DNA from: an uncultured Ilumatobacter sp. | Lineage (GTDB): Bacteria > Actinomycetota > Acidimicrobiia > Acidimicrobiales > Ilumatobacteraceae | Assembly (NCBI GenBank): GCA_905480335.1 | Contig: CAJQPY010000040.1 | Location: 1 to 64,000 of the forward strand | Reading direction: 5' to 3' | DNA length: 64,000 bases | Part shown: in pieces, positions 37,109-39,821 of the stretch | Layout of the letters: each line of letters starts with the position of its first letter | Numbering within the stretch: position 1 is the stretch's first letter | Notes under the pieces: model-generated | Seen by the model: only the letters and a program-made list of their open reading frames with translations | Database searches by the model: none | Told to the model about the DNA's origin: nothing | Translations under genes and position numbers: made by a program

Positions 37109-37612
37109 TTAGTCGGTGGCTGGTTCACGACTCCAATTCACATCGAAATCGCGCTCGATGTCGAGCACCTGATACGCACGCCCGAGACCTACACAGAATC
37201 CGACGGTCACGGTGAGTTCGAGAATTTCGACTTCGGTGAACAGGTCCTTGAGCTGCGCCCACATTTTGTCGTCAATTGCAGTGTGATCGATTGCGAACTG
37301 CTCTGCGAACGCCGCCGCTAGCTTCTCGCGGTCGGTGAACTTGGAGTTGCTGCGAAAGTCCTCAATGTCGTGGTACAGCTCTTCGGTCAGTCCTTGCTGC
37401 ATCGCCGATGCAGCGCGCGTGTTCAGTCAAACGTGACACTCGTTGAGTTGGGCTATGCGCATGCGTGCGACCTCGCGTTCACGAACGCTGATGCTCGTCT
37501 TGGTGTAGACGGCTTCGCCCATCACCCCCATGGCCTTGCCGAGCTCTGGGGCAAGACTCCAGATGCGTTTAGCCTCCATGCCCTCGCCTTTGGGAACATT
37601 AATCTTCGCCAT
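37109..37612 (-). CDS. Carboxymuconolactone decarboxylase/AhpD-family protein, candidate CxxU selenoprotein
   Basis: Read through an in-frame TGA at 37427-37429, the gene gives a 167-residue protein. The first part is MAKINVPKGEG... ending REREVARMRIAQLNECHV; the frame continues LNTRAASAMQQGLTEEL and on to a normal stop at 37109. AhpD-like proteins have a redox CxxC after RIAQLNxC. Here Cys59 is followed two residues later by TGA as codon 62, giving C-H-V-U. The ATG has GAGGAG upstream. A hairpin begins 12 nt after the TGA. AhpD-like selenoproteins with CxxU are known from marine metagenomes (recalled). Selenocysteine is the best reading; a Cys-to-stop mutation is the alternative. No selA, selB or tRNA-Sec gene lies in the window. 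It is downstream of the molybdopterin gene. Confidence 0.75.
37396..37414 (-). promoter_or_regulatory. Candidate bacterial SECIS hairpin
   Basis: On the minus strand GCTGCATC (37414-37407), loop GGC (37406-37404) and GATGCAGC (37403-37396) form a perfect 8-bp stem. It begins 12 nt after the in-frame TGA, with the loop's first G after 20 nt. A short stem with G at the start of the apical loop, about 16-37 nt after UGA, is the recalled bacterial SECIS pattern. The element lies within codons of the CMD gene. Confidence 0.65.
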
Positions 37613-37661
37613 CAGAATCTCCTCAGCTTTGGGTGATGATCGGGATTGTCTTTAGAAGTTG

Positions 37662-39821
37662 TCACGCGACCGCTTCACTTGCCTTCGCGACTGCGACCGG
37701 AATGGCGCTTGACACGACCATGCCGGTTACCGGATCGGAGCCGATATCGGTTGACACGAGGCGGCTCGTTGGCGAGCCGATCTCGCGGACTTTTTCGTCG
37801 GTGAGCGAACGGCCGCCCCATGAGTGCGCCATCGAGATGACACCGTGTTTAACGTCGTCGGCTGCCTCGACGACACCGAGTAGGGACGCCTGAGGGGAGC
37901 TGATCTCAATTACGTCACCTGACTCGAGGCCTAGTTTGGCGACGTCGTCAGGGTGCATGTACGCCGAATTAGTCGTGCCCTTCCGAGCGAGGCCCGGGAG
38001 TTCGGTACCGGTCGAGTTGAGTACGTGCTTCAGTCGCCGGCTGACCAGGCGGAACGGGTAGTCGGACACGTCGTTTCCGGCGAAGGTGTCGGCGGTCTCG
38101 GCGAGCACCTCGGCTAGTTCGGCGACGAAGTCGTCGGGGGCCGGCGCGAACTTTGCGGTGGCATTCTCGTCAGCGGGATCGACCACCAGCTTCTTGTCCA
38201 TGTGCACGGTCCGCAGATTTGCCCGCACCTCGTCGAGCGGCATCCGGGAGCCGTGGTACGAACGATCAATGATCTCGTCGGTGTCGGGACGCACGGTCAT
38301 GTCCGGCGAACCACCCGGCAAAGGGAGGGTGCTGCCCAGGCGGGCCGCAAGTTCCCAGAAGACTTCCCACTCATTCAGCACATCACCGTCACGCTCGACG
38401 ACTGCCCCGGTGTAGTTGGTGTACGGCGCGCGGAACCAGCGGTCCATGAGGTGTGGGACATCGGCGCGTTCAAGCGGCAAGGTCGGAGCGATCACGTAGT
38501 TGGCCAATTCAGCCGTTGCGGTCATCCGGTAGTCAACGACGACGAGGAGTTCGAGATCCTCCATCGCCTCCATAGTGAGTTCGTGGTTGGGAAATGCCAC
38601 GACCGGGTTGCCGCCGCTGACGATCAACGCCCTGATACGGCCGTCACCGGGAGTGAGAATCTCCTCGGCCAGGGTGGCTGCAGGCATCTCTCCGCGATAC
38701 CCGCGGAGGTTGCGGATGCGCGCTTCGGGGCCGTTCGTCGGGTTGCGGGGGGCGGTGGCCTGGGCCCGGTGGGGCATCTCGGGATAGAGCAGGAGGCCGT
38801 TCTCCATGAGGTCGCCCTCACGATTGACCCGTCCGAGAATTGTGTTGAGGACCGCAGTCATGTGCTCGGTGAGGCTTGAATGCGCGGCCATGTTCGGGCC
38901 GGTTCCCGTTCCCGCCGTGCCGCGCCGTCCGTCCGCGAACATTCGCACGGCGGCGACGATGTCGTCAGGATCGAGTTGCGTGCGCTCAGCGACAAGGTCG
39001 AGAGTGAATCCCGAAACGGCGGCTTCGAGTTCGCCCATCTGGTCCACCCAGCGGTCGCAGAACTCGTGGTCTTGCATGCTCTCGTCGAGAACGATCTTGA
39101 TCATCCCGGCGAGCAGTGTGGTGTCCTGGCCGGGGCGGATCTGAAGGTGGATGTCGGCGAAGCTTGCCAGCTCGGTGCGACGCGGATCGATGACAATCAG
39201 CTTCATGCCTTCGGCCTTGCGACGGCGCATCACCGTGAACGGATTGGTGCCTTGCAGGCCACCGATTGGAGCGTACGACGAGACCATCGAGTTGTATCCG
39301 ATCGCCATATGGACGTCGGAGTCGGTAAACGAGTGGTATCCGGCTTCCCAGCCGCCAAGGCGAAGCATTGCCAGGCCCTTTGCCGGCTGGTCAATCGTGA
39401 CCGAGGTGTAGAACGACACCGAGTCGAGGCCCTGATGGAACGAGCGGGCCGCAGGCACCGCTACTGAGTTCTGGTAACCACCAGTGCCCGTGTAAGAGGC
39501 GACCGCACGCGGCCCGTAGGCGTCGATGATCCGGCGAAGCTCGGCAGCGATCTCGTCGAGTGCATCGCCACTCGTTGTCTCTTCGAACGTGCCGTCCGGT
39601 CGGCGACGCAGCGGTTGACGGATCCGTTTCGGATCGGCCATCTGGTCGGGGATCTGACGTCCTTTGATGCAGGTGTATCCCTCGAACAGTGGGTCGTCCA
39701 TCACGCCACGGACAGCAACGACCTTTTTGTCCTCAATATCGACCTCCATCGGACAGCTTGCGTGACACACGCGACAGAACGTGTGCTCGGTGCGTACCCC
39801 GGCGGTGGTCTCGCTCGACAT
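37662..39821 (-). CDS. Molybdopterin-dependent oxidoreductase (DMSO reductase/formate dehydrogenase superfamily)
   Basis: A 719-residue catalytic subunit. The N-terminal [4Fe-4S] ligands are C16-x2-C19-x3-C23 and C51. Family segments for bis-MGD binding follow (GYNSMVSSYAP, VIDPRRTELASFADIHLQI, VSGGNPVVAFPNHEL). The C-terminal domain has the MGD-binding cap with HPDDVAKLGLESGDVIEI. No Tat signal is seen, so it is probably cytoplasmic. No electron-transfer subunit is adjacent. The Mo ligand could not be assigned and neither could the substrate. The next gene downstream on the same strand, 49 bp away, is the candidate selenoprotein. Confidence 0.9.
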   Translation of the reverse strand: MSSETTAGVRTEHTFCRVCHASCPMEVDIEDKKVVAVRGVMDDPLFEGYTCIKGRQIPDQMADPKRIRQPLRRRPDGTFEETTSGDALDEIAAELRRIIDAYGPRAVASYTGTGGYQNSVAVPAARSFHQGLDSVSFYTSVTIDQPAKGLAMLRLGGWEAGYHSFTDSDVHMAIGYNSMVSSYAPIGGLQGTNPFTVMRRRKAEGMKLIVIDPRRTELASFADIHLQIRPGQDTTLLAGMIKIVLDESMQDHEFCDRWVDQMGELEAAVSGFTLDLVAERTQLDPDDIVAAVRMFADGRRGTAGTGTGPNMAAHSSLTEHMTAVLNTILGRVNREGDLMENGLLLYPEMPHRAQATAPRNPTNGPEARIRNLRGYRGEMPAATLAEEILTPGDGRIRALIVSGGNPVVAFPNHELTMEAMEDLELLVVVDYRMTATAELANYVIAPTLPLERADVPHLMDRWFRAPYTNYTGAVVERDGDVLNEWEVFWELAARLGSTLPLPGGSPDMTVRPDTDEIIDRSYHGSRMPLDEVRANLRTVHMDKKLVVDPADENATAKFAPAPDDFVAELAEVLAETADTFAGNDVSDYPFRLVSRRLKHVLNSTGTELPGLARKGTTNSAYMHPDDVAKLGLESGDVIEISSPQASLLGVVEAADDVKHGVISMAHSWGGRSLTDEKVREIGSPTSRLVSTDIGSDPVTGMVVSSAIPVAVAKASEAVA

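Follow-up and report, generated by a model that had tools for sequence, protein, structure and literature searches.

An in-frame TGA in a CMD/AhpD-like gene of an uncultured Ilumatobacter very probably marks a CxxU selenoprotein of a known kind

Our analysis of a 64,000-nucleotide stretch of DNA from an uncultured Ilumatobacter (the whole of which we call the window) indicates that one of its genes, interrupted by an in-frame TGA, almost certainly codes for an intact CxxU selenoprotein of the AhpD/CMD family, a confidence that applies to the gene product as such and excludes its substrate and partner. The proposal in the initial annotation that this UGA stands for selenocysteine is supported by the selenocysteine genes of the genome, by the alternation of TGA with Cys codons among relatives and by a hairpin that is kept in TGA genes only. 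The gene comprises the following elements.

37109..37612, minus strand: predicted CMD/AhpD-like selenoprotein CDS, 167 aa with Sec62, from the ATG at 37612 to the TAA at 37111-37109
37427..37429, minus strand: in-frame TGA, codon 62, read as selenocysteine; CxxU with Cys59 at 37438-37436
37619..37624, minus strand: ribosome-binding site GAGGAG, 6 nt 5' of the ATG

The TGA at codon 62 is the sole in-frame stop ahead of the TAA in this 167-codon frame, and the product (MAKINVPKGEG...QLNECHV[TGA]LNTRAASAMQQG...REPATD, 167 residues) reads C59-H-V-[TGA]-L-N-T-R around it. Coordinates, codon number, motif, ribosome-binding site and hairpin had all been given correctly at the outset, with the minus strand (37612->37109) left unstated; a plus-strand reading of 37109-37612 gives a nonsense translation and was rejected. 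Scanning the window for genes with a single read-through TGA, that is for a TGA parting a pair of open stretches, each 45 codons or longer, with candidates prefiltered to an overlap below 30% with other genes, returned 24 places, among which the CMD locus alone has zero overlap with other genes. The remaining 23 either overlap a predicted gene or consist of a gene together with its neighbour or leader, and were dropped on coordinates alone. In a plasmid search, all 23 records stayed below 60% identity, the 20 listed lying at 31-34%.

The genome that contains the window (G000) measures 2.95 Mb in 51 contigs and is 94% complete. It carries selA and, overlapping its end, selB (L004 7157-8875; 285 bits, cut-off 242.25), together with a tRNA-Sec gene (66.5 bits, cut-off 47; ARAGORN also calls SeC(tca)) and selD (365.7 bits, cut-off 125). 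An absence of selA, selB and selC, which the initial annotation had named as the mark of a plain pseudogene, is therefore not the case. In addition, selD itself carries an early in-frame TGA with a strong hairpin directly 3' of it and, judged by these features, counts as another selenoprotein gene.

G000:C31:56738-57658, minus strand: selD with in-frame TGA (locus L042, outside the window), SHGAG[U]GCKLAPGEL

To this can be added a co-occurrence across the order, where 82 of the 298 genomes searched have a match to the CMD gene at E <= 1e-20, 38 of them with at least one match that holds exactly one stop, a TGA, and 44 without a stop. selA or tRNA-Sec is present in 37 of the 38 genomes with a TGA copy versus 19 of the 44 whose copy lacks TGA (Fisher P 4e-8, by a test that ignores phylogeny). 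This count disregards six weak selA matches (E 8.8e-4 to 1.5e-17); with the three of them that belong to the 44 no-TGA genomes, the figure for the latter rises to 22/44. The one exception, G170 (83% complete, about 520 contigs), has a TGA copy, with neither selA nor tRNA-Sec found.

Relatives were also collected by a scan of one collection of genome contigs, using two peptide patterns that leave out codon 62 and a query alignment rich in TGA members, which matched 253 stretches and gave 217 relatives. Codon 62, read in the best 80 of these, is TGA in 72, TGT in five, TGC in three and nothing else. Among the best 30 order-wide matches, one of which is the window's own copy and some of which recur among the 80 loci, 26 have a TGA at codon 62 and no other stop, and four have Cys there; the remaining matches were judged by stop count only. 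A plain pseudogene, with a nonsense mutation at codon 62 followed by drift, would fit a frame that a stop codon interrupts as well as the downstream fragments that stand in the protein database, yet seems extremely improbable in the face of a TGA that recurs at the same codon in nine-tenths of these best 80 of 217 relatives, that is the only stop in every TGA locus (26/26) among the best 30 order-wide matches and that comes with a hairpin kept in TGA genes but not in Cys genes. Nor was the decay in relatives seen that had been put forward as a further sign of a pseudogene: beside the 72/80 TGA and 8/80 Cys forms, the two nearest Ilumatobacter MAG copies (L044, L048) are free of any further stop. 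A same-genus genome, G134, neither supports nor refutes our reading because it has no copy of the window's CMD gene at E <= 1e-20.

That a Cys codon (TGT/TGC) was turned into TGA by sequencing or assembly error would take a single base. The same TGA and a hairpin in the same place are, however, found in contigs of many projects, and two database fragments that are 96-99% identical to the C-terminal part of the window's product (on contigs of at most 3.1 kb) also start after the TGA, so we rate such an error as next to negligible. Such short entries are common: 45 of the 120 homologues listed (351 found) are 92-112 aa long, and the 15 of these that were read all start 3' of the TGA. As downstream-sized fragments, they point to a widespread selenoprotein that gene callers hide. 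They could also speak for a split or internally initiated protein, of the sort gene callers do report, in which a 97-residue ORF from the ATG at 37402 (M71) is made apart from an N-terminal piece. We hold this to be highly improbable, as that ATG lies within the 3' arm of the hairpin and has no ribosome-binding site before it (by eye), and the Cys relatives span the full length in a single frame. Moreover, silent and replacement differences from L044 are about equal across the first 61 codons (19 synonymous and 20 replacement; 27 and 24 across the 98 codons after the TGA, all raw counts). Finally, UGA might be decoded as another residue, through general reassignment or ordinary read-through. 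We found no points in favour of this and consider it exceedingly unlikely: TGA is the usual stop, ending 52 of the 59 mechanically predicted genes of the window, and codon 62 alternates with Cys only (best 80 of 217 relatives) and tracks the sel genes.

How Sec and Cys forms are related was followed in a tree of 104 rows (the 80 loci, the window and 23 full-length Cys homologues) with column 62 masked. Seven state changes are needed, three of them forced by well-supported branches, where support means SH-aLRT only and 36 of 98 inner branches are unresolved. Full-length database rows are Cys by construction, hence their Cys share is no frequency. The rows nearest to the window are Sec genes, namely L044 and L048 (uncultured Ilumatobacter) and then L081 and L047; given its long end branch and the many unresolved inner branches, the exact place of the window row is unsure. 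As for the Cys form of L093, its aligned frame breaks near the C-terminus with two TGA (codons 145, 151), probably by a frameshift.

The hairpin that follows the TGA in the window, GCTGCATC-GGC-GATGCAGC, has a perfect 8-bp stem and starts 12 nt 3' of the TGA.

37396..37414, minus strand: SECIS-like hairpin, 8-bp stem, 3-nt loop GGC, loop 20 nt after the TGA

According to the Fig. 2 legend of PMC13188914, bacterial SECIS elements have a loop of 3-9 nt, an upper stem of 4-16 bp, a G in the first two loop positions, a UGA-to-loop distance of 16-37 nt and an MFE <= -7.5; the window hairpin agrees with all of these rules (loop of 3 nt, GGC; stem of 8 bp; spacing of 20 nt; -12.7 kcal/mol). When codons were redrawn by usage with the amino acids fixed, its eight pairs were reached in only 1 of 300 draws, which is more pairing than expected by chance; in folding energy, a weaker version of the same test, it is not unusual, as 9% of the 300 reached its value. 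Among relatives, at least seven of the eight stem pairs form at the same distance in all 73 TGA genes (72 loci of the best 80, plus the window), with a mean of 7.47 pairs seen versus 4.61 in the synonymous redraw, whereas the eight Cys genes have a mean of 3.62 versus 3.39 and a maximum of 5. Changes on both sides occur in five of the eight stem pairs, a number that 0/500 shuffles (which ignore relatedness) attained, and sliding the stem partner by 1-3 columns leaves at most two pairs with such changes. One example extends to the protein: GCCGCATC pairs with GATGCGGC, CAG (Gln72) having become CGG (Arg) while the opposite arm changed silently. Because stem types are few (one is shared by 26 and another by 23 of the 73 TGA genes) and relatedness was not removed, the rows are not independent and the independent evidence is smaller than their count. 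Residues encoded by the 3' arm also fall within one of the two peptide patterns used to find the loci, which favours those amino acids, a bias that is allowed for since the synonymous redraw holds the protein fixed. Together, these data show that the hairpin is selected in TGA genes and not kept in Cys genes.

A covariance model of this hairpin, run on the window's genome, gave nine matches at E <= 10. The window came out on top at 70.8 bits (and was counted twice, once for each strand); further matches were weak. One of them, C5:154455 (E = 5), sits within a CMD-like frame of 168 residues that reads DCHT[U]LSLR.

G000:C5:154287-154790, plus strand: candidate second CMD-type CxxU gene (P0122; loci L129/L132, outside the window)

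Although an E of 5 proves nothing alone, this gene, which scores 23.6 bits against the Pfam CMD cut-off of 23, is supported by the recurrence of TGA at the CxxU place. There are matches to it in 25 of the 298 genomes at E <= 1e-15, with a TGA at that place in 17 (G134 included), no stop in seven and a TAG elsewhere in one (G190), and of the 17 TGA genomes, 16 carry selA or tRNA-Sec whereas G170 once more does not. The hairpin of this second family, assessed in 23 of 28 matches (L147 and L156-L159 left out), has a mean of 5.65 of six pairs in 17 TGA loci versus 3.74 by redraw, but six Cys loci also show 4.67 pairs (redraw 3.33), making the test weaker than that for the window family; in the gene's own genome alone, P is 0.14. 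A hairpin model built on one family can in this way point to a further selenoprotein candidate of the genome. Of the other matches, C5:109379 was dropped on both strands because it looked by eye like a mere stem inside an uninterrupted LysR-like frame, and C8:44779 because no fitting frame was seen by eye; the remaining three matches were C10:84343, C5:164829 and C28:42310. An ORF that looks CMD-like by eye (...FSPRDRTALAFTEQY...) ends just ahead of the second CMD gene (L129:1056-1331, plus strand), and a Pfam scan of the longer frame at that place returned no family.

Upstream of the window's CMD gene lies a gene for a larger redox enzyme.

37662..39821, minus strand: molybdopterin oxidoreductase, 719 aa (Pfam PF00384/PF01568/PF04879), 49 nt upstream of the CMD gene

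In 20 of the 80 loci (best 80 of 217), fewer than 100 nt separate the end of the oxidoreductase match from the CMD gene that follows it, a count limited by contig ends in several loci; these 20 adjoining loci comprise 15 Sec and five Cys forms of the CMD gene. A P450 gene stands divergent on the other side of the oxidoreductase in 16 of the 20. We regard the oxidoreductase as a probable operon partner of the CMD gene, and it is this adjacency only that suggests the two proteins may be partners in function, too. In L048 and L081, about 1.3 and 0.8 kb separate the oxidoreductase match from the CMD gene, the gap in L081 being measured either from residue 33 of that match or from an inferred start. 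PDB matches of the 719-aa protein include acetylene hydratase and formate dehydrogenase-type subunits (E 3.5e-36 and 1.6e-34), but for each of the 25 NCBIfam models listed its score lies far under the cut-off.

From these observations we infer how selenocysteine insertion, chemistry, substrate and partnership may look. The gene would give rise to a small, all-helical AhpD/CMD thiol oxidoreductase with the active site Cys59-x-x-Sec62. For its synthesis, SelB with Sec-tRNA(Sec) would bind the hairpin (37414-37396), and the UGA in the A-site would be decoded as selenocysteine to yield the 167-residue protein. The selenol of Sec62 is probably a fast, low-pKa attacker of a peroxide, a disulfide or another small oxidised substrate, with Cys59 resolving the Sec62 intermediate, and the CMD selenoprotein may cooperate with the molybdopterin oxidoreductase whose gene directly precedes its own. 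Taking all parts jointly, a tentative scenario (to our minds possible, if somewhat short of probable) may be envisaged in which a distinct, so far unmodelled selenoprotein subfamily (CMD, CxxU, Arg in place of the AhpD His) is spread across the Acidimicrobiia and went through several Sec/Cys switches. In one lineage it would form a two-gene unit with the molybdopterin oxidoreductase and may recycle that enzyme or accept electrons for it; with the second CxxU protein, selenium would then serve a broader redox system. The Acidimicrobiia lineages concerned lead a mostly aerobic life. Sec and Cys forms, five of the latter behind the same molybdoenzyme gene, make up a natural set that helps to ask why Sec is kept.

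The kind of protein is already known, as CMD/AhpD-like CxxU selenoproteins have been published since 2005, when a CMD domain-containing example (PF02627) appeared in print in the Sargasso Sea set, a study that also describes hairpins downstream of the UGA in the families it introduced (PMC1088965). They are listed in reviews as well (PMC9312934, PMC13188914), and the Global Ocean Sampling survey describes AhpD-like 2 (pfam02627, CxxU), with 70 selenoproteins in 25 samples, as commoner in non-marine samples (PMC2398784). Set beside the window gene by description only, the Sargasso protein shares the same Pfam domain and CxxU (PMC1088965) and AhpD-like 2 the same domain and motif (PMC2398784); quite possibly, the AhpD-like 2 set includes the subfamily found in the window. 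PMC1088965 contains no mention of actinobacter-, and PMC13188914 none of actinobacter-, actinomycet- or acidimicrob-. Literature searches on selenoproteins in Acidimicrobiia and selenocysteine in Ilumatobacter, with supplements outside their scope, returned only papers that seem unrelated by their titles and opening abstract lines. Hence, we see in the window gene a further example of a known selenoprotein kind that was cut short by gene finders and is very probably intact.

Its product matches the Pfam CMD family PF02627 above the cut-off (E 2.2e-9; 37.6 bits, cut-off 23), and since C59 and C/U62 are invariant in an alignment of 24 rows, the CxxC/CxxU dithiol is present. An AlphaFold model built on these 24 rows, with residue 62 modelled as Cys (pLDDT 83.2, pTM 0.77), predicts an all-helical, AhpD-like fold, with P. 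aeruginosa AhpD as its best PDB match (7xw1; TM 0.71/0.87). Among NCBIfam models, the best match is NF053654, a YciW-related (seleno)protein (E 4.4e-14, residues 26-138), but at 52.6 bits versus a cut-off of 310 the window protein is outside that family; it also stays below the cut-off of TIGR01926 (29.1 bits, cut-off 81.8). AhpD-type enzymes are known for peroxidase or lipoyl-linked reductase activity, and M. tuberculosis AhpD has a proton-relay Glu before its motif and a His after it. All 104 rows of our tree alignment have a Glu 12 residues ahead of the first Cys and, four residues past the second Cys, an Arg at the slot of the PA0269 His. With Arg at the His slot, one classical AhpD feature is missing, which is why we call the protein AhpD-like rather than AhpD proper. 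Compared with M. tuberculosis AhpD (1knc, 1gu9, 1lw1), the fold is distantly alike (query TM 0.48-0.57) and the Glu before the first Cys is shared, whereas the Foldseek match is weak (E 0.28-0.95) and the His slot differs. P. aeruginosa AhpD/PA0269 (7xw1, 2ijc, 2o4d) is alike in fold, in its profile match (E 2e-14) and in having CxxC at the same place, and differs by its His (here Arg) and its Cys (here Sec). The CMD protein of the window may work like AhpD.
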